Positions 286 through 18,806 of a DNA stretch of 64,000 nucleotides are shown piece by piece. A model generated the notes under the pieces. That model did not search any database and had not been told where the DNA came from. It worked only from the letters and a program-made list of their open reading frames with translations. Position 1 is the first letter of the stretch, and each line of letters begins with the position of its first letter. The DNA lies in NCBI RefSeq assembly GCF_007990755.1, contig NZ_BJXA01000034.1, forward strand, positions 24,799-88,798. The letters run 5' to 3'. The position numbers and the translations under genes are program-made. This DNA is from Nocardia ninae NBRC 108245 (GTDB lineage: Bacteria > Actinomycetota > Actinomycetes > Mycobacteriales > Mycobacteriaceae).

Positions 286-323
286 GCTGCCCTCCTTTCC
301 CAGGGTTTCGAGTTCCTCTTGCT

Positions 324-365: not shown

Positions 366-445
366 AACACCTTATCCGGTGCTTCATGCCGTCGGAAGCT
401 GCCGCAGCCCGGCCGCGGCATTCGTCGATCGAAGGAAACCTCCCC

Positions 446-1381: not shown

Positions 1382-1435
1382 GACGCCCGGTGCGGCGTTA
1401 TCGCCGAACTTCTGATGGACTCGCGAAACCGAGAT

Positions 1436-2653
1436 TCATGACACGAAGCGCGGTGTTCCGGCCCGCGCCCCCGAAACGATCTGCACGATGGCCAGCACCA
1501 CCAGCAACACCAGCACAGCGGTCCAGGCATGGGTCAGATCGTGCAGCGCACCGGCCAGCACCGGACCGACCGCGCACAGCGCGAACCCGGCGATCTGACT
1601 CATCGCAGTCAGCTTCGCGGTCGTCTGCGCATCACGCGCCCGCAGCAGCGGTAAGGAATACCCGATCGCGGTGCCCGCCCCCAACCCCGCACCGAGCAGA
1701 ATCATCCATACGATCGCCCCGCCGGTCGGCGAAATCAACAGTCCCACAAAGGAGATGGCCAACACCGCACCGGTCGATGTCGCAGCCCAGACCTGCCGTT
1801 CGCTCCGGTTCACCACAATGGACATGGCCAGTGCCGAGGGAACGGCAACCAGATTGGCCACCGAGAGCATGCCGCCCGCCCATGAAGCGTCCATGCCCGC
1901 ATCCACGAGAATCGTTGGCAGCCAAGCGGACACGGTGTAGAACAGCAACGCCGGCATGGCGAAGAAGATTGTCACCGCCCAGGCCAGCGGCTGCAACCAC
2001 AAGCTGCGCGGCGCGCCCTCGGCCGCGGGACCGGCACCGACATCGCTGCGGACGCGCAACTGAGGCAGCCACACCAGCCACGCGACGACAACGGGCACCG
2101 CCCACAGCCCCAGCGTCGCACGCCAGCCGAGGCCGGTGGCGTCCTGTAGCGGCAGCGTGATTCCGGAGGCCGCGGCCGCCCCGGTGTACAGGGACATGGT
2201 GTAGAGCCCGGTCAGCAGTCCGACATGCCCGGGGTGATCGCGCTTGATCGCAGCTGGAACCAGCACGTTGCCCACGGTGATGGCAAGGCCGATGATCGCG
2301 GTCCCGGCGAACAGCGCCACCACGCCGGGCAGCAGCCGAATCCCGAAGCCCGCCAGCAACACCAGCAGCGCGAAGCCGATCGTGCGGTTGAGCCCCAGCT
2401 CGCGCCCGATCCGCGGCGTAAGGCCGGAAAAGCCCACCCAGCAGGCGATCGGCACCGCCACCAGCAGGCTGGCCACGGTGCTGTTGAATCCCTCCTGCTG
2501 CTGCACCTGCGGCATCAGCGTCGCGATCGCCGTGATGGGCGGCCGCAGATTCAACGCGACCAGCGAGACGCCGACCGCCACCAACCAGATCGGCACCGCC
2601 ACAGCGGATTTGGCCGCGTGCGCCGTAGTGCCATCCTCTGCTTCGGCCCTCAC
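1436..2653 (-). CDS. MFS transporter, CynX/NimT type; likely exporter of the cluster product
   Basis: A 405-residue major facilitator protein with about 12 hydrophobic segments. It resembles the CynX/NimT (cyanate/2-nitroimidazole) branch: an opening like AVGVSLVALNLRPPITAI and the RDHPGHVGLLTGLY loop are typical. The GTG start at 2653 overlaps the stop of the diiron oxygenase as GTGA, so it is translationally coupled and is the last gene of the hydrazine operon. Its position points to efflux of, and self-protection against, the pathway product. This is inference; the family includes importers as well as drug exporters. It is convergent with the upstream hydrolase, with a 54-bp gap and no clear terminator. 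Confidence 0.88.
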   Translation of the reverse strand: MRAEAEDGTTAHAAKSAVAVPIWLVAVGVSLVALNLRPPITAIATLMPQVQQQEGFNSTVASLLVAVPIACWVGFSGLTPRIGRELGLNRTIGFALLVLLAGFGIRLLPGVVALFAGTAIIGLAITVGNVLVPAAIKRDHPGHVGLLTGLYTMSLYTGAAAASGITLPLQDATGLGWRATLGLWAVPVVVAWLVWLPQLRVRSDVGAGPAAEGAPRSLWLQPLAWAVTIFFAMPALLFYTVSAWLPTILVDAGMDASWAGGMLSVANLVAVPSALAMSIVVNRSERQVWAATSTGAVLAISFVGLLISPTGGAIVWMILLGAGLGAGTAIGYSLPLLRARDAQTTAKLTAMSQIAGFALCAVGPVLAGALHDLTHAWTAVLVLLVVLAIVQIVSGARAGTPRFVS

Positions 2654-3654
2654 TGTCCCTCGATCGTCACCGTGGACCAGTCGAACGTGAGCTCCTCGAG
2701 AATGTCCAGCTCGCTGCAGAACTTGTGCAGCCCACTGAAATTGGACAGCAGCCGCTTGGTCGACGTGTCGTGCTCGACCTCCCGCAGCATCTCGTGCCCG
2801 CCCTCCACACCGACCAGATCGACGATGCGATGCCAGGTGGGGAAGTTGTTCGCGGCGAACGCCTCCAGCCCGTCGACCATCGCCTCCCGGAACAGCGCGC
2901 GCTGCGCCGGACCGAGCCGGTGGTAGACGGCCTTGGCGACCTCGTCGGCGATCGAGGAGTGGCAGTACTCGTCGCGGTTGTGCATGGTCGCGGTGACTTT
3001 GTTGATCGGCTGGATCTCGTCGTCCTCGGCGATCAGGTCGAGGTAGGAGTTGATCGAGATCTCGGCGACCGTGGCGAAGGCGAGGGCGCTGAGCTCGCGC
3101 TGCCAACCCTGCTCGCTCCGTGCCATGCGCTGGCGGAGCCGAGCGGCCTTGTGCCCGAGCGGTAGTGCCGTCTCGGGCATCCGCCAGCCGCGGCGGCGCC
3201 GCATCACCGAACTCGCATTGAGATGCATGAGGGTGTGGTACTGCTCGTCGAGCATCGCCTGCGTCATGGCGGTGGTCAGCATGTCCATGTCGAGGCCGGT
3301 GTCGAAGGTGTCCTCGATGACCAGGGCGAAGGTCGGATTCACCACGTGCTGCTCGGTGTCCATGATGTGTTTGTTGAAAGCCACCCAGCCCCAGCCGAGC
3401 ATCCGCGCCTTGATGTCGGGGTCCAGCGCACGGTAGGTCGGATGCTCCCGGAACGGGACCAGACCCTCCGGATAATCGGGGCGGGCGGGTTCGAACAGCT
3501 CGTCGAGGTCGGGCTCGGGGCGCTTCACCATCGCGCGCCGATGCCAGTTACCGGTGAGCCTGCTGATCACCGCGTTCTCGACCGGGTCGTCGGGGTCGTG
3601 CTCCGGTAGCGACGGCATGGCAGGACCGCCTCCGGGATATTGCGGCAATGTCAC
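2650..3654 (-). CDS. AurF-like non-haem diiron N-oxygenase
   Basis: A 334-residue member of the AurF/CmlI diiron oxygenase family, which oxidises amine nitrogens. Both EX(28-37)DEXXH motifs are intact: Glu101 followed by DEQYH (Glu137, His140), and Glu198 followed by DEYCH (Glu229, His232), with the additional ligand His225. This matches the seven-ligand set of AurF almost position for position. It follows the PKS by 2 nt and overlaps the MFS gene by 4 nt. GTG 3654 is used here; ATG 3618 is an alternative with a GGAGG box. No aryl amine pathway is nearby, so the likely substrate is the hydrazine or hydrazone nitrogen made by this operon. Diazo formation or N-hydroxylation are the candidate reactions (inference). 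Confidence 0.87.
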   Translation of the reverse strand: MTLPQYPGGGPAMPSLPEHDPDDPVENAVISRLTGNWHRRAMVKRPEPDLDELFEPARPDYPEGLVPFREHPTYRALDPDIKARMLGWGWVAFNKHIMDTEQHVVNPTFALVIEDTFDTGLDMDMLTTAMTQAMLDEQYHTLMHLNASSVMRRRRGWRMPETALPLGHKAARLRQRMARSEQGWQRELSALAFATVAEISINSYLDLIAEDDEIQPINKVTATMHNRDEYCHSSIADEVAKAVYHRLGPAQRALFREAMVDGLEAFAANNFPTWHRIVDLVGVEGGHEMLREVEHDTSTKRLLSNFSGLHKFCSELDILEELTFDWSTVTIEGQ

Positions 3655-3656
3655 GG

Positions 3657-6600
3657 CTATCCCTCCATTTCTCTCCGGTCACCCGCATCCGGGTGGTCAG
3701 CGATGATCGCCTCGGCGAGGTCTTCGACGCTGGCGGCGAGCACCGCGCTCGACGAAATCTCGGTTCCCCACCGTTGTTCCAGCCTGGCACGTATCTCGAC
3801 GGCGGCCAGCGAGTCACACCCGACGTCGCGCAATGGCCGCCGACGCGGAATCCGTTGCGCCGGAAGGCCGAGTACCGCGCCGAGTTCGGCGGTCAGGGTG
3901 TCCAGCAGGCCGCCACCGTCCGGGACTTCCGGTGCCGGTGGGGCAGGCTGCGCGTAGACCGGTGTGTCCGCTACCGACTCGGCAGGAGTGAACCAGGTAC
4001 GGCGCCGTTGCCACGGGTAGGTGGGCATCTCGTCCGGAATGCTGAACGTCGGATAGATCGCGGACCAGTCCGGATCGACACCGGCGGTGTAGAGGCGGGC
4101 GACGATTTCCGCGAGGCGAGCGGTTTCGGAGGTGTCCCTGCGTAATCCGGCCACCGCCGTACCGGAGGTACTGTCGGCGAGGCATTGCTCGATGGCCTGC
4201 ACCAGCACCGAATGCGGGCTGATCTCGAGGAAAACTGTTGGTCCCAGCGCATTCTCGGCGGCGATCGCGTCGGCGAACCGAACGGTGGACCGCAGGTTGT
4301 CGGCCCAGTACCGCGCGTCGAGATCAGGGCCGGACATGCGCTCACCGGTGACGGTGGACCTGAGCGGCACAGCCACCGGTTCGGCCCGCATCCCGGCGAG
4401 CGCGGTGATCAGCCGCGGTTGCAGCGGATCCATGAACCGGCTGTGCGAGGCGAAGTTGATCCGCACCCGCCCGGCACGCACCCCGGTGTCGCGCAGTTCG
4501 GCGAGTAACCCATCCAGCGCGTCACTTTCGCCGGACAGCACGGTCAGCCGCGGGCTGTTGCGCGCGGCCACCACGAGCCGGTCGCCGTAGCGCGCGGCCG
4601 CCGCCTGTGCCTCGTCGGCAGGCATTGCCACGGCGATCATGCCACCCAGGCCGTCCGCCTGCGACGTGAGTTCGCCTCGGCGACAGATGAGTTCGGCCGC
4701 CGCGCGCAGATCGATGGCCCCGGCGACCGTGGCTGCGGCCACCTCACCGAAGCTGTGCCCGATGACCACAGCGGGCTCGATGCCCCAGGAGCGCCAATGT
4801 TGTGCCAACGCGACCTGCATGGCCCACACGGCCGGTTGGATCACCGCGGTCTTCGCCAGCTCCGCCCCGTCGTCGTCGGCGAGCACCTTCAACAGTGACC
4901 AACCGGCCGCGGAGTGGATTGCCGCGTCGCAGCTCTCGATCGTGGTGCGGAAGGCGGCCGAGCTGTTCAGCAGCTCGCGGCCCATGCCGACCCACTGGCT
5001 GCCGTGCCCGGGGAAGACGAAGGCGACGCGGACTCCGCCGGTCGGCCGTTGCGTGAGCTCATCGGGAAGTTGGGCGCGTAACGCCTCGGCCAGCCCGTCA
5101 CCGTCGAGCGCGGCCACCGCGGTCCGCCATTCGTGATGTGCTCGACCGCGCGCGGCGACGGCACACACCCGCCGCGCCGTGACCGGGTCCTCGCCGTCGA
5201 GCCGGTCCGCGTAGGCGGCTGTAAGCGCCTGTGCCGCATCACGATCGCGCGCAGACAGGGGCAGCACCAAGGGCTGCGGCTCGTCATCGCCGTCCGGTGT
5301 CGAATCGACAGGCGGCGCGGTGAGCACGACGTGCACGTTGGTGCCGGACAGGCCGAACGACGTGACACCGGCGACTGGAGTCGAATCCTCTTGCCACGCA
5401 ACAGGTTCAGTCGGCATCAACAGCGGCGTGTCCGGCTCGAGCAGCACCGGATGTGGCTCGGTCAGCAGCGGATTCGCCGGAACCAGCCGATGATGCAGGC
5501 TCAGCACCGTTTTGATGAATCCCGAGATGCCGGCTGCCCCTTCGGGGTGGCCGATATTGGTCTTCACCGAGCCGACCAGGCAGGGCCGCCCCGCCGGCCG
5601 CGTTCCGGCGAACACTCGGGACAGCGCCCGCAACTCGATGGCGTCACCGGTATTGGTGCCGGTGCCATGGGCTTCCACATAATCCACCGCAGCCGGATCG
5701 ATCCCCGCACGGTCCAGTGCGTCGCGCAGCAGCCGTTCCTGGGCCTCCTGGGCCGGGGCCACCAGCGAACCACCGCCGCTGCCGTCGTTATTGCTCGCAC
5801 TGCCCGCGATCACCGCATAGACGCGATCTCCGTCGGCGCGGGCCTGCGCCAACGGTTTGAGCACCACCACGCCGACTCCTTCGGAGCGGACGAAGCCGTC
5901 ACCGCTGGCGTCGCCGAACCGGCAGCGACCCCGCCGCGACATCAACCCGACCTGCTCGTAGATGGCGGCCAGTTCGGGCAGCAGCACCAGATTCGCCCCG
6001 GCGGCCAGTGCCAGGTCCGAATCCCCGAGTTGCAAGCTCTGCCAGGCTAAATGCACCGCGGTGAGCGACGACGAGCACGCCGTGTCGACCGAGACGCTGG
6101 GGCCACGCAGGTCCAGCGCGAACGAGATGCGGCCGGACAGGAACGAGGGCAGCCCGCCGCCGGTCAGCGCGTGCAGGTCGAGTGCACTCTGCCGGGCCTG
6201 CAATTCCCAATAGTCCCGGCCCATCTGCCCGACGAACACGCCGGTGCGCGTGCCTGCCAGCGCGGTCGGCGGAATCCCGGCGTCCTCCAAGGCCTCCCAG
6301 GCCACCTCCAGCAGCAGCCGCTGCTGCGGGTCCATCCGGTCGGCCTCTCGGGGCGAGATACCGAAGAAGGCGGCGTCGAAACCCTCGACGTCGTCGAGGA
6401 ATCCGCCGAAGCGGCGAAATCCGGACGGCACCGCGGGCAGCCGGCCGAACACGGCGGGGTGCTCGGTGCGCCGCTCCGGTACCTCGGTCACCGCGTCCAC
6501 GCCGTCGACGAGCAGCCGCCAGAGTGCTTGCGGGTCATCGGCTCCCGGCAAGCGGCAGCCGATGCCGACGACGGCCACCGGTTCGATGCGCCCGCGTCGG

Positions 6601-7376
6601 ACGGGCTCCGGGACAGCGGCCGAACGTGGCCGGTCGACCGGCGGCAGGAAGCGGCGCAGCTCGGCGGTGACCATCCTGGTCAGCTCGCGGCGATGGGTCC
6701 GGACGAAGAAATGGCCGCCCGACAATACGCGCGTCCGTACGGCCCCATCGGTGAGTTCACCCCATGCGTCGGCATCGTCCGGTGCCGCCAGGGTGTCGTC
6801 CCGGCCGCTGAACACCACGATCGGGCACTCCACCGGCGCGGCGGACCGATGTTGGTAGGTGGAGAACATCGTGACGTCCGCGCGCAACGCGGGCAGCGCC
6901 GCGCGCAGCAGATCGCGCTCATCGCGCAATTCGGCTGGGGTGCCGCCCATCTCGAAGATCCGGTCGAGCAGCTCGTCGTCGGGCAGTTCGTGCATGGGGT
7001 CTTGGGTGAGCCGGTGCGCTGCGGCCAGACCCGCCACCAGCAGGCCGACCGGGGCGGGTGCGCCGGCGCGGTGCAGCCGCAGCGCCACCTGGTATGCCAG
7101 CAGGCCGCCCAGGCTGTGCCCGAACAGCGCGAAGGGCGCGTCGAGATGCGGACGGAGCGCGTCGACGACCGCGTCGGCCAAGGCGTCCAGATCGGCCAGC
7201 GGCGGCTCGCCCGCGCGTTCCTCCCGTCCGGGCAGCAGTACCGGCAGCACGTCGACCCAACCCGGCAGCTCTTGATGCCAGCCACGGAAAACCGATGCGC
7301 CGCCGCCGGAATGCGGGAAGCAGAACAGCCGCACCCGCGCCGAGCGGCGGGGCGGCCGCGACAGGAACGCACTCAT
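3657..7376 (-). CDS. Single-module polyketide synthase with N-terminal thioesterase (TE-KS-AT-ACP)
   Basis: 1239 residues. Residues 1-250 are a type II thioesterase fold with GHSLGG (Ser88) and a C-terminal SGGHFF histidine. Residues about 262-690 are a ketosynthase with DTACSSSL (Cys434), EAHGTGT (His570) and KTNIGHPEGAAG (His610). Residues about 782-1080 are an acyltransferase with GHSFGE (Ser875). The extender-code motif is FASH, which is neither the malonyl HAFH nor the methylmalonyl YASH, so the unit is uncertain. The C-terminal ACP has GCDSL (Ser near 1189). There is no KR, DH or ER, so one pass gives an unreduced beta-keto thioester. A thioesterase at the N-terminus is unusual. The ATG overlaps the upstream stop (ATGA). 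It probably extends the ACP-bound nitrogenous starter once and releases a free acid. Confidence 0.93.
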   Translation of the reverse strand: MSAFLSRPPRRSARVRLFCFPHSGGGASVFRGWHQELPGWVDVLPVLLPGREERAGEPPLADLDALADAVVDALRPHLDAPFALFGHSLGGLLAYQVALRLHRAGAPAPVGLLVAGLAAAHRLTQDPMHELPDDELLDRIFEMGGTPAELRDERDLLRAALPALRADVTMFSTYQHRSAAPVECPIVVFSGRDDTLAAPDDADAWGELTDGAVRTRVLSGGHFFVRTHRRELTRMVTAELRRFLPPVDRPRSAAVPEPVRRGRIEPVAVVGIGCRLPGADDPQALWRLLVDGVDAVTEVPERRTEHPAVFGRLPAVPSGFRRFGGFLDDVEGFDAAFFGISPREADRMDPQQRLLLEVAWEALEDAGIPPTALAGTRTGVFVGQMGRDYWELQARQSALDLHALTGGGLPSFLSGRISFALDLRGPSVSVDTACSSSLTAVHLAWQSLQLGDSDLALAAGANLVLLPELAAIYEQVGLMSRRGRCRFGDASGDGFVRSEGVGVVVLKPLAQARADGDRVYAVIAGSASNNDGSGGGSLVAPAQEAQERLLRDALDRAGIDPAAVDYVEAHGTGTNTGDAIELRALSRVFAGTRPAGRPCLVGSVKTNIGHPEGAAGISGFIKTVLSLHHRLVPANPLLTEPHPVLLEPDTPLLMPTEPVAWQEDSTPVAGVTSFGLSGTNVHVVLTAPPVDSTPDGDDEPQPLVLPLSARDRDAAQALTAAYADRLDGEDPVTARRVCAVAARGRAHHEWRTAVAALDGDGLAEALRAQLPDELTQRPTGGVRVAFVFPGHGSQWVGMGRELLNSSAAFRTTIESCDAAIHSAAGWSLLKVLADDDGAELAKTAVIQPAVWAMQVALAQHWRSWGIEPAVVIGHSFGEVAAATVAGAIDLRAAAELICRRGELTSQADGLGGMIAVAMPADEAQAAAARYGDRLVVAARNSPRLTVLSGESDALDGLLAELRDTGVRAGRVRINFASHSRFMDPLQPRLITALAGMRAEPVAVPLRSTVTGERMSGPDLDARYWADNLRSTVRFADAIAAENALGPTVFLEISPHSVLVQAIEQCLADSTSGTAVAGLRRDTSETARLAEIVARLYTAGVDPDWSAIYPTFSIPDEMPTYPWQRRRTWFTPAESVADTPVYAQPAPPAPEVPDGGGLLDTLTAELGAVLGLPAQRIPRRRPLRDVGCDSLAAVEIRARLEQRWGTEISSSAVLAASVEDLAEAIIADHPDAGDRREMEG

Positions 7377-8548
7377 TTCGCCCGCCCCCGGCCGCCCAGC
7401 GAGCCCGCGATGATCAGCTTCTGCACCTCGGAGGTGCCCTCGTAGATCCGCAGTGACCGGATCTGCCGGTACAGCCGCTCCGGCACGCTGTCGGCGACCA
7501 GTCCCGCGGCACCGAAGACCTGCACGCAGGCGTCCACGATGTGTTGCGCGTGTTCGGTGGCGTACAGCTTGGCGATGCTGGAGTGTTTCGCCGCCGCCGG
7601 ATCGCCGCGGTCGGCCTCCCAGGCGGCGCGGGCCACCAGCAAGGCCGCGGCGTTCAGCTCCACCTCGATCTCCGCGAACGTCGCCTTCACCAGTTGCAGG
7701 TCGAACTGCCGGCCGCCGTACATCGACCGGTTCTTCGCGTGGGTCAGCGCGGCGTCGGTGGCCCGGCGCGCGAACCCGATTGCCGCGGCGCCCACGGTCA
7801 TTCGAAACCGTTCGAGTACCTCCATCGCGATCACGAAACCGCCGCCAGGTCTGCCGAGCACGCTGTCGTGCGGCAGATGGCAGTCCACGAACTCGAGACC
7901 GGCGAAGGATCGGGGAGCGATCAGCGGAACTCGTTGCCCCACCGTCAGTCCCGGGGTGTTCGCGGGCACCAGGAACGCCGTCAAGCCCAGTGCGCCCGGA
8001 CCCTCGCCGGTTCGCGCGATGACGCAGAACAGGTCTGCGATACCGCCGTTGGCGATCCAGGCCTTCTTACCGTTCAGCACATAGCCGTCGGCAACCCGCT
8101 CGGCACGCAAGCCGATCGCGGCGACGTCCGAGCCGACCTCCGGTTCGGAGATGGCGAACGCGCCGCACAGGGTGCCTTTCGCCATCGGCGCCAGATACCG
8201 CCGCTGCTGTTCTTCGTTGCCGTGCCGCACGATCGGCGTCGCGGCCAGGGCCTGGATCGAGAAGGCGAAGTCGGCGAGATCGTCGGCGTAGGCCAGCGCC
8301 TCGCGCAGCAGGCACAGTGAGCGGCAGTCGCCTGCCGCCAGGCCCGCGGGCCCCGCAGCGGGATCCAGCGCCGCCAGCCAGCCGTGTTCGCCCAGTGCCC
8401 GCAGAATCCGCAGCCCGGTCGCATCGGGATCGGCCGGGTCGTCCCACAGCTCGCTGTGCTCGGCGCACCAGCTCTCGATCTGCCTCGCGCGCTCTACATG
8501 TCGCGGCTCGTAGAAGGGGAGGGCGAGGATGCCCGCATCGAAGCTCAT
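7373..8548 (-). CDS. Acyl-CoA dehydrogenase-like flavoprotein
   Basis: 391 residues with the full acyl-CoA dehydrogenase fold: the FAD-proximal AISEPEVGSDVAAI segment, the KAWIANGG strand and the C-terminal YEGTSEVQ carrying the usual catalytic Glu. It is coupled by ATGA overlaps to both neighbours. In a hydrazinoacetyl-ACP pathway its probable job is to dehydrogenate the N-N-C unit of the acylated carrier-bound intermediate to a hydrazone or azo form, as proposed for the ACAD-like enzyme in triacsin-type pathways. That assignment rests on context; the sequence alone says only acyl-thioester dehydrogenase. Confidence 0.92.
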   Translation of the reverse strand: MSFDAGILALPFYEPRHVERARQIESWCAEHSELWDDPADPDATGLRILRALGEHGWLAALDPAAGPAGLAAGDCRSLCLLREALAYADDLADFAFSIQALAATPIVRHGNEEQQRRYLAPMAKGTLCGAFAISEPEVGSDVAAIGLRAERVADGYVLNGKKAWIANGGIADLFCVIARTGEGPGALGLTAFLVPANTPGLTVGQRVPLIAPRSFAGLEFVDCHLPHDSVLGRPGGGFVIAMEVLERFRMTVGAAAIGFARRATDAALTHAKNRSMYGGRQFDLQLVKATFAEIEVELNAAALLVARAAWEADRGDPAAAKHSSIAKLYATEHAQHIVDACVQVFGAAGLVADSVPERLYRQIRSLRIYEGTSEVQKLIIAGSLGGRGRAK

Positions 8549-9597
8549 CGTTGCTCCTGGGACAGCGTGAAGATTTCGGTGGCGTGCGCCGCGGGGTCGC
8601 CCGGCCGCAGGTACAGCCGGCCGCGACCCGGACAGAGCACGACGGCGGCGACGGTGCGCTCGCGACGGATATCGCCGTTGTCCGTGACGTTGATCGGCGG
8701 CGCGGACAGCACGGCGAAATGGTCCTCCGGATCGGCGGGCACGGTGGCGAGCCGGCTCCGGCACTGCTCGAGCCTGCGGACCGACGAATTGCGGGCGAAC
8801 ACGTTGATCTCGTCCCGGGGTGCGAGGTCGGGATGCAGGAAATGATTGGTGTGCGCGGTATTCAGGCTGTACTCGACCCGGAAATCCGAGTCGAGCACCT
8901 CGACATAGGCGGCAGTGTCCTTGTCGCACAAGACGATGTTGCGCGAACTCGCCAGCGGCAGCTTCCGCAACACGCGCACCGCTTCCTCGACGGTGCCCGC
9001 GTTGTCGAGTAGATGCCGGATGGCGAGGTAGGGCGGCACACCCGGATGCCACTGGCCGCCCAGCACGAGATTCAACCCGACCGCGAGCCCGTCGCTGTTG
9101 AGGCCGAGGTAGCCGAGCAGTCCGCCGAAACTGAGCACGAGAACGCGCCGGGACGTCCCGGCACGCACGATCTCCAGCACACTGATCTGATCGTCCAGAT
9201 TGCCATTGAGATCAACGGTCTGTGCCAGCACGGGTTCGGCACCGGCCAGTGCGTACGTGGTGCAGTCTCCGGCGGTCGGAATTTTCTGGTAGCCGAGGAT
9301 TTCACGGCGTAGTTGCAGCAACGCGGCCTCGTACGGGTCGATATTCGCCCCGGTGGCGAGACCGCGGATCTCTTCGGCCAGATCCGGTGTCGCAGCGGTG
9401 ATCTCGGCCAGATAGGCGTCGATCGTCGGCCGTAACTCCGCGAGTGACACCGGCTCGGGCAGGATCCGGTTCAACCGGCATAGTCCGTCGTCCAGGAAGG
9501 CCCGCAGGTCGGCGGCTCTGGCCTGGCCGTGCTGATAGCCGAGGGCGAAGGAATCCCCCTCGGCTCGGACGAACGGAGTCCGCAGGACCGCGCTCAT
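8545..9597 (-). CDS. C45-family N-terminal-nucleophile acyltransferase/amidohydrolase
   Basis: 350 residues resembling the acyl-CoA:6-aminopenicillanate acyltransferase family (peptidase C45). These precursors self-cleave before a Cys that becomes the nucleophile; here the site is TAGDCTTYALAG, giving Cys112. Downstream strands (LVLSFGGLLGYLGLNSDGLAVGLN is the kind of core expected) match the alpha-beta-beta-alpha Ntn fold. It overlaps the GNAT and ACAD genes by ATGA. Being next to an N-acyltransferase and a dehydrogenase, it plausibly removes the N-acyl group after oxidation, or transfers it elsewhere. The role is inferred. Confidence 0.85.
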   Translation of the reverse strand: MSAVLRTPFVRAEGDSFALGYQHGQARAADLRAFLDDGLCRLNRILPEPVSLAELRPTIDAYLAEITAATPDLAEEIRGLATGANIDPYEAALLQLRREILGYQKIPTAGDCTTYALAGAEPVLAQTVDLNGNLDDQISVLEIVRAGTSRRVLVLSFGGLLGYLGLNSDGLAVGLNLVLGGQWHPGVPPYLAIRHLLDNAGTVEEAVRVLRKLPLASSRNIVLCDKDTAAYVEVLDSDFRVEYSLNTAHTNHFLHPDLAPRDEINVFARNSSVRRLEQCRSRLATVPADPEDHFAVLSAPPINVTDNGDIRRERTVAAVVLCPGRGRLYLRPGDPAAHATEIFTLSQEQR

Positions 9598-10208
9598 TCG
9601 ACGGCGCCCGCCAACTGCACTTTCGGATATGCCGCCAATTTGCTTTTGACGCCGGGCCATTCGCCGCGCAGCACGCTGTAGAAGATGGCGTCCCGGCGAC
9701 GGCCGCCGGGCATCGGATTGAAGCTGCGCAGTACACCCTCCTCGACCGCTCCGATATTGCGCAGGCCCCGGCGCGCCTGCTCGTTGAGCACGTCGGTCTT
9801 GAACTCCACCCGTTCCGCGCCGAGCCGTTCGAAGGCGTGTTCCAGCAGTAGGTATTTCGCCCACCGGTTGAGCCCGCTGCCGCGGAAGTCCCGTCCGAGC
9901 CAGGACCAGCCGATCTCGAGCCTGCCGTCCCGCTCGGCCATGTTCCCGTAGCTCATGCTGCCCGCGGCCCGGCCGCTGGCCTTGTCCATGATGTAGAAGA
10001 CCACCCGGCGCCCGGCCAGCTGATCATCCAGTGCCGCATCGAAAAACGCGTCGAAGTCGGCTTCGGACTCCACCAGCGAGACGAAATACCGCCAGATATC
10101 CGGATCGAGCGCGATCGCGCACAAGGCCGCCCGGTCCGTCGGCTCGATCGGCCGGAGCAGGACATGGTCGTTCTCCAGCCGCGCGGGCGCCAGCTCAGCC
10201 CATCCCAT
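9594..10208 (-). CDS. GNAT N-acyltransferase (RimJ/RimL type)
   Basis: 204 residues with the GNAT motif A region (GRDFRGSGLNRWAKYLLLEHA, an R-x-x-G-x-G/A-like loop) and the LNEQARRGLRNIGA segment that is typical of RimJ/RimL acetyltransferases. I use ATG 10208, one base after the ACP stop; GTG 10220 is an alternative inside the ACP gene. In the triacsin pathway a GNAT protein encoded beside the HAA-loading ligase and ACP N-succinylates the carrier-bound hydrazine. The same gene order here suggests an equivalent acylation. The acyl donor is not evident. Confidence 0.88.
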   Translation of the reverse strand: MGWAELAPARLENDHVLLRPIEPTDRAALCAIALDPDIWRYFVSLVESEADFDAFFDAALDDQLAGRRVVFYIMDKASGRAAGSMSYGNMAERDGRLEIGWSWLGRDFRGSGLNRWAKYLLLEHAFERLGAERVEFKTDVLNEQARRGLRNIGAVEEGVLRSFNPMPGGRRRDAIFYSVLRGEWPGVKSKLAAYPKVQLAGAVE

Positions 10209-10209
10209 G

Positions 10210-10470
10210 TCAGACCGCACTTTCGGAGTGCCGGGACAGCGCGGCCGTCACATCGCGCAGGGTACGCATGGCAGCCACGTCCTCCTCGGTGAAGCTCGCC
10301 AGCGAGATGCCCGTGTCGTCGCAGACCGCGGTCAGGAACAGGACCTTGTTCAGCGAGGTGAGGCCGTAGTCGTCGACCATGTCGAGGTCCGGATCGAGTT
10401 CACCGGGTGCGTTGTTCGACGCGATCACCTTCCGGAAGTTGTCGTGCACGGCCTTTTCCAGATCAGGCAT
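10210..10470 (-). CDS. Stand-alone acyl carrier protein
   Basis: 86 residues of acidic, helical ACP sequence. The phosphopantetheine site is DYGLTSLNKVLF, with Ser39 as the expected attachment residue. It begins inside the end of the ligase gene (8-nt overlap) and ends 1 nt before the GNAT gene. The tight pairing with the ligase says it is the carrier loaded with the adenylated acid, here most likely hydrazinoacetate. It is separate from the ACP at the C-terminus of the PKS, so the chain must be handed from this ACP to the PKS ketosynthase. Confidence 0.9.
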   Translation of the reverse strand: MPDLEKAVHDNFRKVIASNNAPGELDPDLDMVDDYGLTSLNKVLFLTAVCDDTGISLASFTEEDVAAMRTLRDVTAALSRHSESAV

Positions 10471-11950
10471 GTGTTCTTCCTTTCTCGCCGATTTCCCGTC
10501 GATACTGTTCGAGGATCTGCCGACGTTTCGGTTTGTATTGCGAACTGAGCAGCCCGTTTTCGATGCTGAACCGGGGCTCGGCGATCACCACTCTGGCGAT
10601 GCGCTCATCGCGTTCGAGCTCCTGATTGGTTCGTTCGAGGTGTTCGGTGATCGCCGCTGTATCGGCGGGTTCGCTGGTCGGCGAGACGACCGCGACGAGT
10701 TGGGTCTGCGTCGGGCAGAACAGCACGCAGTGCTCGATCGCCGCACTCGCGGCCATACGCTCCTCGATCGGCCGGACGATGACCTTCTTGCCGTTCGCCA
10801 ATACGATCACGTCGTCGGCGCGACCCTGGATATACAGAAAGCCATCGTCGTCCAGGTAACCGATATCGCCGGTCCGGACCGTGCCGTCCGCGGCGAACGC
10901 GCCCATCGAATGCGCGGTCGCGCCGTACTCGTACCGCCGCGCCACCGGGAAAGCGCTGCGCACACTGATGGCTCCGTCGGCGTCGAACAGCACCTCTTTG
11001 CCGGGCACGACGCGTCCGACGCTGCCTTCCTTGCTCGCGCCCGGATAGTTCTTGGCGACAATGCAGGTCTCGTTCATGCCGTAGCCCTCGTAGATGGGCA
11101 GGCCCAGGTTCGTGAAGAAACGCAGCATGTCCGGGCCGGCCGGCGCGGAACCGGTCCACAGGTACCGGATTCGATCGCCGAACATCTCCTTGGCCGCCAC
11201 CTGCGGATCGGTCTGTGCCGCCAGATGCCGTTTCACGGTCTCGTAGAAGCCCGGCACTCCCATCACTACGGTGGGTCGCACCTGTCGCATTACCGTGAAC
11301 GCCGCTTCGTAGGTGCTGACCGTGACGTCGTGGCCGAAACACAGCGCCGAGTAGATCCAGTACCGCTGCTGCAACAGAGCCAGTGGCAGGAACACGAACA
11401 GGTGGTCGCCGGGGCCGTGCGCGAACATTGCTTGGACGGCGCGCAGTGAGCTGTCGATGCTACCGACGCTGGCCGCCAAGCCTTTCGGCACGCCGGTGCT
11501 GCCTGAGGTGAACTTGAGGGTCGTCGCCTCTTCGCTGTAGTACCGGACCTCGGGCAGGGGGTCGGCCGGTTGTTCGGCGAGCACGCGCGCCTCGCTGATC
11601 GGCCGGACACCGGCGGCGGTGGACGGCTGATCGGTGAACAGCAGTTTCAGGTCGTAGCGGGCGAGCAGCGCCTCGTCGGGCTCGAACTTGCCGGGCTCGA
11701 GCCCCGCGGTCACTGCTTTGCACCGCAGCGCGGCCAGATCGAGCAGCACCCATTCCAGGCAGTTCGCAGCGAGGATGCCGATCCGATCCCCTTGCCCCAC
11801 ACCCAATTCGCGGAGCCGAACCGCCAGGCGTTCGGCACCGGCAGCCAGTTCGCGCAGTTCGATAGATTCCGTCTTGCCCAGCCGCGCGAAGGTGGCGTGG
11901 TAGCCGGCCGGGGGCGGCGTCGCGACGATCTGGTTGATCACCGAATCCAT
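10463..11950 (-). CDS. AMP-dependent acyl ligase, proposed to load hydrazinoacetate on the ACP
   Basis: 495-residue ANL-superfamily enzyme. The ATP-binding loop is LKFTSGSTGVPKG, followed by GYGMNE, RTGDIGYLDDDG and GRADDVIVLANGKK. The C-terminal hinge and a basic tail (YKPKRRQI) resemble fatty acyl ligases. It starts at ATG 11950, overlapping the stop of the cupin-MetRS gene (TGATG), and runs 8 nt into the ACP gene. In triacsin biosynthesis a ligase in this position adenylates hydrazinoacetic acid and transfers it to the partner ACP. Same role inferred here from gene order; the substrate pocket was not analysed. Confidence 0.88.
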   Translation of the reverse strand: MDSVINQIVATPPPAGYHATFARLGKTESIELRELAAGAERLAVRLRELGVGQGDRIGILAANCLEWVLLDLAALRCKAVTAGLEPGKFEPDEALLARYDLKLLFTDQPSTAAGVRPISEARVLAEQPADPLPEVRYYSEEATTLKFTSGSTGVPKGLAASVGSIDSSLRAVQAMFAHGPGDHLFVFLPLALLQQRYWIYSALCFGHDVTVSTYEAAFTVMRQVRPTVVMGVPGFYETVKRHLAAQTDPQVAAKEMFGDRIRYLWTGSAPAGPDMLRFFTNLGLPIYEGYGMNETCIVAKNYPGASKEGSVGRVVPGKEVLFDADGAISVRSAFPVARRYEYGATAHSMGAFAADGTVRTGDIGYLDDDGFLYIQGRADDVIVLANGKKVIVRPIEERMAASAAIEHCVLFCPTQTQLVAVVSPTSEPADTAAITEHLERTNQELERDERIARVVIAEPRFSIENGLLSSQYKPKRRQILEQYRREIGEKGRTHA

Positions 11951-13965
11951 CAAGCGCTCCCCACCCCGACCGGCTCCGCGGCCTCGACCGATGGTTCGGC
12001 GAAGAACTCGCGCACCAGGTCGACCCGGGTTCCGGCAGGCACGAGTTCCACGGTGTGCGGCCATTCGTTCGGGCGCTCCTCGCCGAGGGCTGCGCCGAGC
12101 CGCCCGGCGAACCGGGGCAGCAGCGGTGTGGCGCAGTGGGCGAGCAACCGGGCTGCGGCGAGTTCTAGCGCCACTGCGGTGCGGGCCTCGTCGTGCCACT
12201 CCTCGGCCGTTGCCACGGCGCTTTCCTGGTCGACGAATCGGCGTGTGTCGGTGACGATTCCGTGCAGCTCTGCGGCCGCGACCTCGAGCGAGAACCCGTC
12301 CGGCCCGAGAGCGGCGGTCACCGCGGACAGTCGCGCGCCCAGCCGACCGAGGAATGCCGTGTGCTCCGGGGTCCAGATGCCGGCGTCCGGGGCGTGGCCG
12401 CCGTATCGCGTCTGGATGCGGTGTCCCAGGTCGTTGAGCCACTGCTGCCAGGTACCGATCAGTTCGTCGCGTACTGCGGCCGTATAGCTTTCGCGAGTGA
12501 AGTTGGTGCGCCTCGACTCCGGCCGCGTCCGGGACAGGAAATAGCGCACCCCGTCCACGCTGTCCGGCGTCAGGATTTCCTTGCCCCAGACGGCATGCCG
12601 TCGGCTGGTGGAGAATTTGCCGCCGTCCAGGAGATAGAACTCGTTGACGTGGTAGTCGATATCCGGCTGCCAGTCGGGGAAGGCCAGCCGGTACAGCACG
12701 GGATACAGGATCGAGTGGTAGAAGCTGTTGTCGTAGCCGAAGAAGTGCACGATCTTCCAGTCCTGCTCGGGCTCGTCCGCCCGCCAGTTCCGGCCGAGGC
12801 GACGGCCCAGCGCCGAAATGCTGTGCAGGAAGCCGTAAGACATCTCCGGCCAGACCCAGATGACCTGCCTCTCCACGTCGGGCTCGGCGGGCGGCACACC
12901 CCAGTTCGCGGGGTGGGTCATTGCCACGTCGAGTCGTGGGCGAGCGAACAATCGGCCGGCCAGTTCGCGCAGCCGCGCCGGAACGCGGCCCAACCGGTGA
13001 TGTGCCGCGAGTTCGGTGGCGAACTCGTGCAGCGGAAGGGTGAACCTGGTGATCGTGTCGATTCGCGGGGTCTCCTGCGAGAGCTTCGACTGCGGATCGG
13101 CCAGATCGACACAGGAATTGGGCTCGCCGCAGCCCTCGCAGATATTTCCGCCGGTTACGGCGCCGCAGCCGGGGCAGCCGCCCGTCACGTCGGCCTCGTA
13201 CAGGTAGTCGCGCGTCGTGGCGTCGAAGAGCGCTTTACCTTCTTGCGGCGCAATGGATCCCGACTTCACGAGGCGGGAGAAGTACGCCTGCAATCCGGCG
13301 CGGTAGGTGGGCTCCCTGTCGGTCACCGTGTACTGGTCGGGCTCGATGTCCATCAGCCGCAGCGTTTCGGCGATCTCGGCGCTGTAGTACGCCGCCGTCG
13401 CGGCGGGGTCCTTGCCCTCGCGCCTGGACCGTTCGACCACGTAGCTCTGATAGTCGTCGCTGCCGGTGAGGTGCCAGGCCTGCGCACCGTTCATCCGCTG
13501 GAATCGGACGAAGACATCCGCCCCCAGATACGGGCCGGACAGATGCCCGAGATGCAGATCCCCATTGGGAGTCGGCGGCGTCGAGAACACGAAGATCGGC
13601 CGCTCGCCGAAACGCCGCCGGTCGCTGCGTCCGGTCGCCGCGCGGGCGGCTCGGCTCGGATCGCGCCAGTACAGGTCGAAGAACACCAGCTCGGTGGACC
13701 CGGTGTTCTCGACGACGTGCGTCTCGAACGGATCGAACAGCACGGCCATGCCCGGGGCGACGGGATGCCGCCCGCCGTCCACTATGACGTCGCCGTGCCC
13801 GCTGACCACCAGGAACAGCTCGGTCTCGTCGTGCTGGTGCGGATCGGACCGGCTACCGGCCGGGACCCGGGCCCAGCCTGCGCCGAAGCCGAATCCGTCG
13901 ATCGAACTCATGTCGATGCCGAATGCGGAGTGCAGTTCGGCCGTGTCGAAACGATTGATGATCAC
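11950..13965 (-). CDS. Cupin-MetRS fusion: hydrazine (N-N bond) forming synthetase
   Basis: 671 residues in two parts. Residues 1-105 are a cupin with metal ligands in PHQHDETEL (His43, His45, Glu49) and ETHVVEN (His83). Residues about 120-671 are a methionyl-tRNA-synthetase-like domain: class I HIGH motif as HLGH (138-141), a zinc knuckle with two CxxC pairs (CPGC and CEGC), a KMSKS-like KFSTSR near 450 and a helical anticodon-domain-like C-terminus. This exact fusion defines Spb40 (s56-p1) and Tri28 (triacsin), which use ATP to couple N6-hydroxylysine with glycine into an N-N bond. Start GTG 13965 overlaps the upstream stop as GTGA. The neighbouring lysine hydroxylase and oxidase make the same assignment very likely here. 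It is not a housekeeping tRNA synthetase. Confidence 0.93.
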   Translation of the reverse strand: MIINRFDTAELHSAFGIDMSSIDGFGFGAGWARVPAGSRSDPHQHDETELFLVVSGHGDVIVDGGRHPVAPGMAVLFDPFETHVVENTGSTELVFFDLYWRDPSRAARAATGRSDRRRFGERPIFVFSTPPTPNGDLHLGHLSGPYLGADVFVRFQRMNGAQAWHLTGSDDYQSYVVERSRREGKDPAATAAYYSAEIAETLRLMDIEPDQYTVTDREPTYRAGLQAYFSRLVKSGSIAPQEGKALFDATTRDYLYEADVTGGCPGCGAVTGGNICEGCGEPNSCVDLADPQSKLSQETPRIDTITRFTLPLHEFATELAAHHRLGRVPARLRELAGRLFARPRLDVAMTHPANWGVPPAEPDVERQVIWVWPEMSYGFLHSISALGRRLGRNWRADEPEQDWKIVHFFGYDNSFYHSILYPVLYRLAFPDWQPDIDYHVNEFYLLDGGKFSTSRRHAVWGKEILTPDSVDGVRYFLSRTRPESRRTNFTRESYTAAVRDELIGTWQQWLNDLGHRIQTRYGGHAPDAGIWTPEHTAFLGRLGARLSAVTAALGPDGFSLEVAAAELHGIVTDTRRFVDQESAVATAEEWHDEARTAVALELAAARLLAHCATPLLPRFAGRLGAALGEERPNEWPHTVELVPAGTRVDLVREFFAEPSVEAAEPVGVGSA

Positions 13966-15038
13966 GCGGGACTCATCTCCTTCGGTGGCTGAGTTGTCTC
14001 CCCGTCCAGTTGCAGCAGGCCGACGGCCTCGGCCGCGATCGCCGGGGCGAGCCGGTAGCCCGAACCGTTGGCGGCACCGGCGAAGATCACCCGTCCGGCC
14101 GGGTCGAGCGTGCGCACCTGTGGCTCCCGATCGGCGCTGTAGGCGTCGCAGAACACGCGGCCGCCTGCGGCGCGTTCGGCCAGTGCGGGTGAGTACCGGT
14201 GCAGCAGGGGCAGGGCCGCGTCGAGAACTTTTTCGTCGAGCCCGTCGGACACGGTGTCGGGGTCGACATCCCACTCCTGGTGGGTGTAGCTGAACAACCA
14301 GTGCCTGCTGTGGCGCAGCGGCAGCAGGAAGGCGTCTTCGTCCTGGAACACGATGACGCCGTCGTCGCGCCTCGGCTCCTGTTCGATGTGGATCGCGGCG
14401 ACCTTCTTGACGCGCGCGTGCAGGGGGGCGACGAGGTCGCGCCATGCTGGATCGGCCAGCCAGGGGCCGGGGGCCAGCACCACGCGTCCGGCCGTGCATG
14501 TCTTGCCGGTGCTGAGCCGGATCAGCACCTCGGAGCCCGCGTCTTCGACGGCGGTGACGCGCACGCCTTCCCGGAAGGTGACGTGCGGACGCAGTTCGCG
14601 GGCCACCGCCTGCGCGACCGCGGGTACGTCGGCGTAGTGGCATCCGTTGCCGTGCCAGGCGCGGGCGCCCTGAGTCAACCGGATGTCCGCGGGCACCGCT
14701 TCCGTCGGTGTCAGTGCGGCACGGTCGAGATAGACCTCATTCAGTTGGGCAGCGGTCGCTGTCGCCACCACGGTCATGCCGAGCGAATGTATCGGCAGGG
14801 CAGGATGTTTCGCGGCGAGGTCTTCGTAGAAATCGTGGCTGTACGCGGTCATCTGCCGCACTCGGTCGGTTGCGCCGCGCGGGAAATGCAGACCTGCGGA
14901 GCGTCTGCTGGCCCCGGTGCCGATCCCATCCCGGTCGAACACCACGACGGGGGTATCGGGGGCGCGTGAAATCACCTCGCGCGCAACGAGACAACCGACG
15001 ATGCCCGCGCCCACGACGGCGACGGTGTTGTTCGTCAT
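13962..15038 (-). CDS. FAD-dependent glycine/D-amino-acid-oxidase-like enzyme releasing hydrazinoacetate
   Basis: 358 residues of the DAO/DadA fold. The dinucleotide site is VAVVGAGIVGCLVAREV at the N-terminus, an acidic FDRDGIGTGAS follows and the C-terminal FAD segment is GAANGSGYRLAPAIAAEA. ATG 15038 overlaps the stop of the lysine hydroxylase (ATGA). In s56-p1, Spb39 of this family oxidatively cleaves the N6-(carboxymethylamino)lysine made by the cupin-MetRS enzyme, giving hydrazinoacetic acid and 2-aminoadipate semialdehyde. Position directly between hydroxylase and synthetase supports the same step. Confidence 0.9.
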   Translation of the reverse strand: MTNNTVAVVGAGIVGCLVAREVISRAPDTPVVVFDRDGIGTGASRRSAGLHFPRGATDRVRQMTAYSHDFYEDLAAKHPALPIHSLGMTVVATATAAQLNEVYLDRAALTPTEAVPADIRLTQGARAWHGNGCHYADVPAVAQAVARELRPHVTFREGVRVTAVEDAGSEVLIRLSTGKTCTAGRVVLAPGPWLADPAWRDLVAPLHARVKKVAAIHIEQEPRRDDGVIVFQDEDAFLLPLRHSRHWLFSYTHQEWDVDPDTVSDGLDEKVLDAALPLLHRYSPALAERAAGGRVFCDAYSADREPQVRTLDPAGRVIFAGAANGSGYRLAPAIAAEAVGLLQLDGETTQPPKEMSPA

Positions 15039-16354
15039 CGCTCTACGCTCCGGTCGTCGGGAGCCTTGGCCGACCATTCGAGAAACGAATCGTGCGGGTC
15101 GTCGGAGCGGATGCCGCGCAGGCGATCGGCTATCCGTTTGCTGCGCCAGGCGACGAGGCTCAGATTGGCGTCGGCCAGGCCGCGCTGTCGGCGGGCGCCG
15201 TTCTGCAGGAAAATGTTTCGGTCGGCGGGGCCGTCCCAGCACACGGCGAAATCCGAGTCGATTTTGTATTCGTCGCGGTCGCGCTCCAGCCGGTCCGCGA
15301 CGGGGGACAGGAACTCCATGTCGTCGGCGTGGAAACCGGTCGCCCAGACGATCACATCCGCCTCGGCATGCTCGTCCACACCAGGTTGGTCGTTGTGCGT
15401 GAAGGTGATGTCCCAGCCCGAGTCGGGGTCGCCGGACACGCCCAGCACGTCGCGGTTCGGGTACAGGGCGACCAGATCGGTGGCACCGTCGACGAAGTGG
15501 TGCAGGTAGATGCGCTGGTAGATCTCGCGCAGCGTCGCCTCGGAGATGCCGTCGCTGGTCAGCACATGGGCGGCGTTGAGCACGTCCCGGGACGCGCCGG
15601 GTAAGCCGGCGAAGTACTCCGAGTAGCCCGGCATGTATAAGTCGTTCGTGAACGGCGAGTCGTCCAACGGAAAGTAGTTGCGGCGCCGGGATATCCAGCC
15701 GACCCGGCGCGGCAGTTCGCTGCGCGGACGGGAGATCAGCTCGAGAAATGCTTCCGCGCCGGACTGGCCGCCGCCGATCACCCACACTCGTCGTCCCGCG
15801 AGTCCGACTGCCTTGTCAGCGAATTCGCTGATATGGAACTGGGTCGGCCCGAGCAGTTTTTCGGCCACCGGCGGAACATAAGGTTTGCGGCCGACCCCGA
15901 TAACGACGTTGTCGGCCTTCACCGCGCGGTTGCCGGTGCGTAGCAGGAAGACGTCATCGAATTCTATGGAACGGACCTCTTCGCCGAAAATCAGGTTCTC
16001 GTTCTTCGAGCTGACCCATTCGAGGTAGTTTCGGAATTCGCTGCGCGGCACCGCATCGAATTGCGCGTTGAGATAGTGGTAGACCCGGCCCTGAGCATGG
16101 AGATAGGACAGGAAAGAGAAGCGGTTTGTCGGGTCGGAGAGGCTGACCAGGTCCTTGAGCATGGAGACCTGGAGCGAGGTGTTGGGGAGGAGTTGCCCGT
16201 CGTGCCAACGGAAGTCGCGCCGCTTCTCGAAGAAACAGTTCGACACGTCAGGCTGTTCGTACAGTAATGAGGCCAGGCTCAAGTTTGCTGGTCCGATACC
16301 GATTCCCACGCATCGGTAATGTTCACAATTGTCGGTGGGCGAGCTCCGGCTCAT
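15035..16354 (-). CDS. L-lysine N6-monooxygenase (flavin N-hydroxylase)
   Basis: 439 residues of the SidA/IucD/Spb38 class. An FAD site GIGIGPANLSLASLL is followed by the substrate-proximal LPNTSLQVSMLKDL segment, the NADPH site VIGGGQSGAEAFLEL, and the late ATGFH motif. Start ATG 16354 has an AGGAGG box 5 nt upstream. It is the first gene of the operon. The family makes N6-hydroxylysine or N5-hydroxyornithine for siderophores. No NRPS or siderophore synthetase is near, and a cupin-MetRS gene is two genes downstream, so hydroxylysine for N-N bond formation is the likely product. Confidence 0.9.
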   Translation of the reverse strand: MSRSSPTDNCEHYRCVGIGIGPANLSLASLLYEQPDVSNCFFEKRRDFRWHDGQLLPNTSLQVSMLKDLVSLSDPTNRFSFLSYLHAQGRVYHYLNAQFDAVPRSEFRNYLEWVSSKNENLIFGEEVRSIEFDDVFLLRTGNRAVKADNVVIGVGRKPYVPPVAEKLLGPTQFHISEFADKAVGLAGRRVWVIGGGQSGAEAFLELISRPRSELPRRVGWISRRRNYFPLDDSPFTNDLYMPGYSEYFAGLPGASRDVLNAAHVLTSDGISEATLREIYQRIYLHHFVDGATDLVALYPNRDVLGVSGDPDSGWDITFTHNDQPGVDEHAEADVIVWATGFHADDMEFLSPVADRLERDRDEYKIDSDFAVCWDGPADRNIFLQNGARRQRGLADANLSLVAWRSKRIADRLRGIRSDDPHDSFLEWSAKAPDDRSVER

Positions 16355-16834
16355 TACGCCTCCTGCCCCTCGGGGCCAGTCCCTCGGTGTGCATGCCGAG
16401 TGAATCGTCGGTTGCGAATTCGCAATACTCGCCCCCGTGGGCGGCTTTGCTGCATGAATAGAACCCCCGTCGATCAGCTGGAGCCCTGTTTACCACTTCA
16501 GAATCCGCGGTAATATCCTCGAACTCAACGCTAGCGGGTGGGGGAGGCGTGCACAAGAACGGTGAAAGTTTTTGCCGGAGTTCGGTGCAACGCTGACGAT
16601 GGCGGGTGTGATCGCCTAAGCGGTTGGCGCGGTAGGGGTTTGGGATACGGCGGCGAAGGCGTAATCTTAGGCTCGAGCAACGACCGATGGAAAGCTGTCG
16701 GGGCTGCTGGAGTCTCCTCTTGTGCTGGCGCTTGTGCCCGCTGCCGCGCTGGTGCCGGCCCGCGGAAGACTCTGCATGGCAGTGGTTTCGAAGCGCATGT
16801 GGGTTGATCGGCGGGGCTCGGCCGTCGAAGACTC
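16355..16834. promoter_or_regulatory. Leader/promoter region of the hydrazine operon
   Basis: A 480-bp stretch without a convincing gene, between the StrR-like regulator stop and the first operon gene. It must hold the promoter for the whole 15-kb operon because no later junction has room for one. I could not pick -35/-10 boxes with confidence. It contains the perfect palindrome listed separately. Short open frames here lack ribosome sites and coding bias. Confidence 0.6.
16412..16425. promoter_or_regulatory. 14-bp perfect palindrome, candidate operator
   Basis: TTGCGAATTCGCAA is a perfect 14-bp palindrome 58 bp upstream of the operon's first ATG. The spacing suits an operator for a dimeric regulator. 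It does not match the published StrR site layout (GTTCGA half-sites split by 11 bp), so either the StrR-like protein here reads another site or a different regulator binds. Confidence 0.5.
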
Positions 16835-17863
16835 TTACGCGGAGAAGGCGCCGCGGGTGTGCTGCTCGAGCCGCTGTGCCAGGCGTTGCAGGTCCTGGGA
16901 GCGCCGTCGGGCGAGCTCGGCGACGCGCGGCGCGCAGTGACTCGGAACATTGCCGACGACGTCGTCCCATTCGATGTCGTCATCGAACGGAAACTCCAGC
17001 CACCGCAGCAGTTTTCGCCCTGTTTCGGAGAAACGCAGCGACGGATCCTTGCGCAGCTGCTGCAGCATCTCCGCTGTGATCACCCGCTGCGGGGCCGGAG
17101 TTCGGGTATCGGACCGCTCGGCGGGTTCGGGTGTAGCCGTCGAACGCCGCGCCGAGCGGCGCAGCGGCACCGGATTCTCGCCACTGTGCAGCCGTTTGCG
17201 CACATCCTTGGCGGTGGTGACCGAGATGCCCGCTGCCACAGCCACTTTCCGCACCGACGCGGTGGGGTCGGCGGTGAACATCTCGGCGGCGCGTTGGCGG
17301 CCCTGCGGTCCGGACCGGTGCCGCACACCGTTGCGAGCGATCCGACCGGTCGACTGTGGAACTTCCACAGTCGACCGCTTGCGGATGGCGGAGACGGTCT
17401 TGGGCGAAACACCCGCGATGGCGGCGATCGCTCGATCCGACCAGTCCGGATACGACATCAGGATCCGGAGCGCGGCGGCCTTCCGCTCGGCCAGCGACAG
17501 CGGCAGGCCGTGCGCCGTATTGAGCTTGACCGCCAGCACGAACGCTTCCTCGGGACCGCCCTCGAAAAACACTGCGGCGATGGTCTTTTCGCCACGCAGC
17601 CGAGCCGCACACAGTCGATGCCAGCCGTCGACAACCTGCATCGTCGCGCGGCGCACCACAATCGGCGCCAGCGCGGTCGTCGACTCGGCGAGTATGCGGG
17701 TGTGATCGGTGTTCTCGCCCGCCGACCGTGGCGGCGAATCCGACGGCAGTAGCTCGCTGATCGGCAGTTCGACAATCTTCGAACAGTACGACGGCGAGCC
17801 CGTGAAGTTCGGTGCGGATAGGGTTCCCGCCCGGACGGAACCGACATTGCCCCCACTGGTCAT
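16835..17863 (-). CDS. StrR-like (ParB/KorB-fold) pathway-specific regulator
   Basis: 342 residues. The N-terminal part (about 30-110) is a ParB-like domain containing VVDGWHRLCAARLRGEKTI; this is followed by NTAHGLPLSLAERKAAALRI and a helix-turn-helix (SDRAIAAIAGVSPKTVSAIRK, about 140-165). These blocks are hallmarks of the StrR/NovG/TeiR activators of antibiotic clusters, not of chromosome-partition ParB proteins. A second HTH-like stretch (KVAVAAGISVTTAKDVRKRL) lies near 215. Start ATG 17863 has a GGGAGGGG box. It is co-directional with and directly upstream of the hydrazine operon, so it is probably its activator. Confidence 0.85.
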   Translation of the reverse strand: MTSGGNVGSVRAGTLSAPNFTGSPSYCSKIVELPISELLPSDSPPRSAGENTDHTRILAESTTALAPIVVRRATMQVVDGWHRLCAARLRGEKTIAAVFFEGGPEEAFVLAVKLNTAHGLPLSLAERKAAALRILMSYPDWSDRAIAAIAGVSPKTVSAIRKRSTVEVPQSTGRIARNGVRHRSGPQGRQRAAEMFTADPTASVRKVAVAAGISVTTAKDVRKRLHSGENPVPLRRSARRSTATPEPAERSDTRTPAPQRVITAEMLQQLRKDPSLRFSETGRKLLRWLEFPFDDDIEWDDVVGNVPSHCAPRVAELARRRSQDLQRLAQRLEQHTRGAFSA

Positions 17864-18751: not shown

Positions 18752-18806
18752 TACCGAATCGATATGTTACGGTTTTCGTACTATCTGACTCTCGAATGGA
18801 CTCATC

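Follow-up and report, generated by a model that had tools for sequence, protein, structure and literature searches.

What do the eleven genes that follow one another head to tail, from 16354 down to 1436, on the minus strand of a 64,000-nucleotide stretch (the window, part of contig C34 of a 9.7-Mb Nocardia genome) make, and is such a system already known? We find that they are almost certainly the dob gene cluster of Nocardia, to judge from gene content and catalytic residues. That system is already known: it has been published and characterised down to its enzymes by Pfeifer, Van Cura, Wu and Balskus (Nature 2026, PMC13061610; preprint May 2025, PMC12154687), whose text reports that Nocardia ninae makes 4-diazo-3-oxobutanoic acid and diazoacetone via dob. 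There, heterologous expression of the cluster in Streptomyces coelicolor gave the product, deletion of dob3 abolished it, and steps were reconstituted, with in vitro work on DobG, DobB, DobC, DobQ, DobM, DobA, Dob2 and Dob3, and work on DobE in E. coli cells (PMC13061610). A literature search on the names of both products, covering 2024 onwards, gave this paper and two synthetic-chemistry papers.

We assigned the genes to families with Pfam and NCBIfam profile searches, using a Pfam cut-off of 0.001. In transcription order, preceded by a regulator gene and named after their published counterparts, they are:

dob1 candidate, 16835..17863, minus strand: DNA-binding regulator, helix-turn-helix (HTH_23, 4e-6)
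dobG, 15035..16354, minus strand: L-lysine N6-hydroxylase, 439 amino acids (Lys_Orn_oxgnase PF13434, 8e-91); ATG start, AGGAGG upstream
dobF, 13962..15038, minus strand: DAO-type FAD enzyme (cleavage to hydrazinoacetate), 358 amino acids (DAO PF01266, 2e-32)
dobE, 11950..13965, minus strand: N-N bond-forming fusion of a cupin and a methionyl-tRNA synthetase (MetRS), 671 amino acids, GTG start (Cupin_2, 1e-14; tRNA-synt_1g, 9e-63)
dobC, 10463..11950, minus strand: AMP-forming ligase for carrier loading, 495 amino acids (AMP-binding PF00501, 1e-44)
dobQ, 10210..10470, minus strand: stand-alone acyl carrier protein (ACP), 86 amino acids, Ser39 in GLTSL (NCBIfam ACP, 1.5e-5, weak)
dobB, 9594..10208, minus strand: GNAT, 204 amino acids (Pfam PF13302, 2e-21)
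dobA, 8545..9597, minus strand: C45 autoproteolytic acyltransferase/hydrolase, 350 amino acids, Cys112 (AAT/C45 Pfam, 1.5e-21; NCBIfam C45_proenzyme, 5e-69)
dobM, 7373..8548, minus strand: acyl-CoA-dehydrogenase-type flavoenzyme, 391 amino acids (PF00441, 9e-41)
dob2, 3657..7376, minus strand: type I polyketide synthase (PKS), 1239 amino acids, with Pfam matches to thioesterase (TE, 16-238), ketosynthase (KS, 265-635), acyltransferase (AT, 786-1102) and PP-binding (1160-1224) domains
dob3, 2650..3654, minus strand: AurF/CmlI-type diiron enzyme, 334 amino acids, GTG start (AurF, 1e-51)
dob4, 1436..2653, minus strand: MFS transporter, 405 amino acids (MFS_1, 7e-16)

The eleven genes from dobG to dob4 are tightly packed, the gaps at successive junctions being -4, -4, -1, -8, +1, -4, -4, -4, +2 and -4 bases (range -8 to +2). 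The 86-residue carrier DobQ had no Pfam match at the cut-off. All three members of the hydrazinoacetate pathway trio (lysine N-hydroxylase, cupin-MetRS and DAO-type flavoenzyme) are present in the window, the hydrazone set of DobG, F, E, C, Q, B, A and M is complete, and the type I PKS with its TE-KS-AT-ACP order, the MFS transporter and the regulator are found as in dob. The published list runs DobG, E, F, B, C, Q, M, A, the Dob1 regulator, Dob2 (TE-KS-AT-ACP), Dob3 (termed an FDO) and Dob4 (MFS) (PMC13061610), so that each of the twelve genes has a named counterpart by kind in the dob clusters of N. ninae and N. tenerifensis. A reading of the DNA letters alone that preceded this work (the sequence-only reading) had described an eleven-gene coupled operon with these domains, a hydrazinoacetate machinery, 4-diazo-3-oxobutanoic acid or its hydrazone as a fitting product and a Nocardia diazo metabolite said to have been reported. 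The layout and domains are as it described, in coordinates, strand, junction gaps and profile matches; the machinery agrees with both the profile matches and the dob paper; and that paper likewise bears out the product, made by the same gene set in N. ninae, and the Nocardia metabolite (PMC13061610). Its chemistry prediction was largely right, and very good, but the system was already in print.

The most specific evidence comes from Dob3. Counted from the GTG at 3654, its residues E101, E137, H140, E198, H225, E229 and H232 all fall at the published numbers of the seven metal-site residues (PMC13061610), with no offset. The window thus shares with dob of N. ninae seven identical Dob3 residue numbers, and by gene content and residue numbers we detected no difference between the two. 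Dob3 is an AurF-family protein that has the six metal ligands and, as a seventh residue, a further His; its PDB matches are 3chh and 5hyg/5hyh. Entry 5hyh, which the dob paper mentions, we take to be CmlI. The AurF/CmlI diiron N-oxygenases resemble Dob3 in sequence family and in the seven metal-site residues; they oxidise aryl amines to nitro groups, whereas Dob3 oxidises a hydrazone to a diazo group (PMC13061610).

Two further observations strengthen the identification. First, hydrazinoacetate genes form another cluster elsewhere in the window's genome, as the paper states for N. ninae, which has two such clusters, dob and nin (PMC13061610). Second, a 4.4-kb contig of N. tenerifensis (L004) carries part of dob2, dob3 and dob4 at 78-88% identity, and the product was detected in that species, the sole strain named in the paper's text among the other dob strains grown (PMC13061610). 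A route from the window to a new product was also sought and none was found, each gene having a published counterpart by kind.

Some points weigh against this assignment. The identity with the published cluster was judged on gene content and residue numbers; production of the diazo compound by the window's own copy would follow from the same gene content and residue identity; expression is not readable from sequence; and the Dob2 AT carries FASH at residues 975-978 (window 4443-4454), together with GHSFG at 873. FASH-type AT motifs lean towards methylmalonyl. antiSMASH, too, predicts methylmalonyl for the Dob2 AT, although malonyl-CoA supported the coupled assay (PMC13061610). Both AT motifs and this prediction would suit a cluster that partly makes a methyl-branched analogue, its AT taking methylmalonyl-CoA; we consider this improbable, given the malonyl-CoA result and the trapped products, which correspond to C4 and C3 diazo compounds (PMC13061610). 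The occurrence of FASH in an AT whose published product requires malonyl-CoA may point to a relaxed extender choice.

More improbable still is a lack of expression or activity of the cluster in this strain. All twelve reading frames, from the dob1 candidate to dob4, are intact, and the checked catalytic residues, whose roles we take from general knowledge of the families, are present. DobE has HLGH at 138 and KFS at 450. Several of the dob loci compared are cut and N. tenerifensis L004 is without most of the genes; wherever the position is covered in loci L002-L006 and L022, the Dob2 residues TE Ser88, KS Cys434, AT Ser875 and ACP Ser1189 and DobM Glu370 are kept. DobQ Ser39 and DobA Cys112 are kept in L002, L003, L005, L006/L022 and the second cluster of the window's genome (L013), and the DobE cupin residues His43, His45, Glu47 and His83 in the Nocardiopsaceae set (L006, L022) and L013, the only sets comparable.

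If the genes are dob, the route would be the published one, proposed for N. ninae and for the most part reconstituted with its proteins (PMC13061610). DobG would hydroxylate the side-chain nitrogen of lysine, DobE would couple that nitrogen to glycine, forming the N-N bond, and DobF would release hydrazinoacetate by cleavage, a function that the paper assigns by homology (PMC13061610). DobB would succinylate the free hydrazinoacetate ahead of carrier loading, DobC would load the succinylated acid onto DobQ, oxidation by DobM would give the succinyl hydrazone, and DobA would strip the succinyl group. Dob2 would then add one malonyl unit to give 4-hydrazono-3-oxobutanoate, whose hydrazone the diiron oxidase Dob3 would convert to the diazo group of 4-diazo-3-oxobutanoic acid; loss of CO2 from this would yield diazoacetone. 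Dob4 presumably exports and Dob1 presumably regulates.

The published order is succinylation of free hydrazinoacetate, loading, DobM, DobA, Dob2, Dob3 (PMC13061610). The sequence-only reading agreed with it in placing dehydrogenation (DobM) before deacylation (DobA) and in having one extension, and departed from it in timing: it put N-acylation after carrier loading, where DobB acts before DobC, and N-oxidation before extension, where Dob3 acts after Dob2 (PMC13061610). A diazo group made before extension, with Dob3 oxidising hydrazonoacetyl-DobQ and Dob2 then extending a diazoacetyl starter, is the least likely alternative: dob3 directly follows dob2 and step order cannot be read from sequence alone, but Dob3 with the hydrazone enzymes gave no pyrazole adduct without Dob2, and Dob3 oxidised free 4-hydrazono-3-oxobutanoate (PMC13061610). 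The paper leaves open whether Dob3 acts on the free or the Dob2-bound hydrazone (after or before the thioester is released), and which electron donor it natively uses (PMC13061610).

How far does the unit extend? The sequence-only reading had omitted the regulator gene, 480 bases upstream of dobG. The N-terminal half of this regulator reads by eye like what we presume to be a ParB/StrR-type domain, and it had no PDB relative at E 0.1. It adjoins dob in five of the six genomes searched, the window's included (G127, G041, G129 and G090 at 75-96% identity); the Nocardiopsaceae genome gave no match to it. The paper names its regulator Dob1 (PMC13061610), and by kind and adjacency we regard this gene as the dob1 candidate and twelfth gene of the cluster.

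In the nearest relative, N. suismassiliense, the flank genes stand in the same order on both sides of dob. Downstream of dob4, no tested flank gene was matched in about 9 kb of N. colli and N. pseudobrasiliensis. Beyond dob1, on the upstream side, flank-gene matches begin only some 6 kb away in N. colli and reach only 29-44% in N. pseudobrasiliensis (G090), as expected of other ABC transporters, and 7 kb of G129 gave no flank-gene match. Because the tested flank genes do not stay beside dob in more distant species, the simplest unit is dob1 to dob4, likely twelve genes. Pfam found no redox-partner family among these twelve, in line with the paper, whose account of the dob cluster has no redox-partner gene (PMC13061610). 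Nor did a partner for Dob3 emerge from the flanks, where no tested gene stays beside dob in more distant species; chosen open reading frames alone served as queries, so a small gene may be missed. These frames were picked with a simple GC3 gene caller that missed six of the eleven dob genes of the window and took some wrong frames, and so was used only for this purpose and for choosing frames for the family scans. Two open reading frames of the window had no Pfam match at 0.001, at 18212-18604 (130 amino acids) and 53995-55602 (535 amino acids); the former is kept in G127, N. suismassiliense (91%).

We then asked how widely dob occurs. A scan for close Dob3 relatives with one genome per species, which may not include the genome of the window itself, returned eight loci: N. 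suismassiliense (98%), N. colli (91%), N. pseudobrasiliensis (88%) and N. tenerifensis (86%) and, outside Nocardia, one Nocardiopsaceae genome (67%) and three Streptomyces (53-61%). We used only these identities, because the Dob3 tree also contained the AurF-type protein of L013, which is so divergent (17-21% identical) that the Nocardiopsaceae protein is poorly placed. Dob2 was matched at E 1e-200 in 44 of 150 Nocardia genomes, with up to four candidates scored per genome; identity reached at least 79% in five of the 150, the window's included, and was at most 49% in the other matches listed. A cupin-MetRS match at E 1e-150 was found in nine of 148 Nocardia genomes, with two copies only in the window's; as the paper gives N. 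ninae two such clusters (PMC13061610), this genome may be that of N. ninae.

A dob-like set outside Nocardia is that of the Nocardiopsaceae bacterium YIM 96095 (L006, L022), where Dob2, Dob3, Dob4 and all eight hydrazone-set proteins have relatives at 45-68% identity. There dobA and dob2 are separated by an amidohydrolase gene of opposite orientation, and dobM and an alanine-dehydrogenase/PNT-type gene lie upstream of dobG; as a guess, the latter possibly serves lysine recycling. The Dob3-like proteins of the three Streptomyces loci have all seven metal residues; within the DNA searched at these loci, none of the eleven remaining dob proteins was matched at E 1e-5. Two of these proteins, in Streptomyces sp. 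NRRL S-350 (L007) and S. novaecaesareae (L008), are 60-61% identical to Dob3; neighbours at L007 are genes for a 2OG-Fe protein, a berberine-bridge-type FAD protein, ATP-grasp proteins and an aminotransferase.

The second hydrazinoacetate cluster of the window's genome (L013, G000:C100:1-20000, 50-19181) has all eight hydrazone genes at 49-70% identity to the window's. They stand behind a PKS end (ketoreductase-ACP, cut by the contig start) and MmgE/PrpD-like, second AMP-ligase, transglutaminase-like (weak), AurF-type, GDSL hydrolase and haem-oxygenase-like diiron genes. The metal-site letters of its AurF-type protein align as EAVEVEH, which at 17-21% identity is not trustworthy. The nin cluster has a single mention in the paper's main text, with no product given there (PMC13061610); as a guess, L013 is perhaps nin. 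Relatives of its AurF-type, GDSL and haem-oxygenase-like genes accompany the eight hydrazone genes in G066, G137 and G074 (L026-L028). The G066 and G137 stretches end before the position of the PKS end and the MmgE/PrpD-like gene, and neither was matched in the 4.9 kb upstream in G074. In G018 (L025, G018:C1:1646001-1666000, 9467-19082) the set is shorter: after G, F, E, a ligase and a GNAT come genes of the alpha/beta-hydrolase, JmjC/Cupin_8 and MFS kinds. Its 20 kb gave no match to DobA, DobM, DobQ or Dob2 at E 1e-8.

Among other N-N systems, the triacsin cluster reportedly leads to a different, longer N-N product, and we know of no Dob2/Dob3 pair in it; the s56-p1 product is said to be a different hydrazone compound. 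The names Tri26-28 for the triacsin trio come from the sequence-only reading. The triacsin hydrazone-forming set is homologous to DobG, E, F, B, C, Q, M and A (PMC13061610), and in s56-p1 Spb38-40, of the same three kinds as dobG/F/E, make hydrazinoacetate (PMC13274452). The azaserine clusters aza/azs share with dob the hydrazinoacetate and carrier-bound hydrazonoacetyl machinery (PMC10445470, PMC13061610, PMC13274452). Azaserine uses a nonribosomal peptide synthetase (NRPS), and its cluster is described as having no FDO (PMC13061610), whereas dob has a PKS and Dob3; Pfam found no NRPS condensation domain in the twelve window genes at E 0.001.

What the present analysis adds to the published work is small: the likely twelve-gene unit, how often it occurs in Nocardia, a relative from a different family and, within the window's genome, a further hydrazinoacetate cluster. 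From lysine, glycine and malonate the dob genes would build a diazo compound that is small and very reactive, and we tentatively suggest, with some doubt, that one Nocardia strain may run two hydrazinoacetate lines, dob leading to the published diazo acid and the L013 set to a different N-N product.

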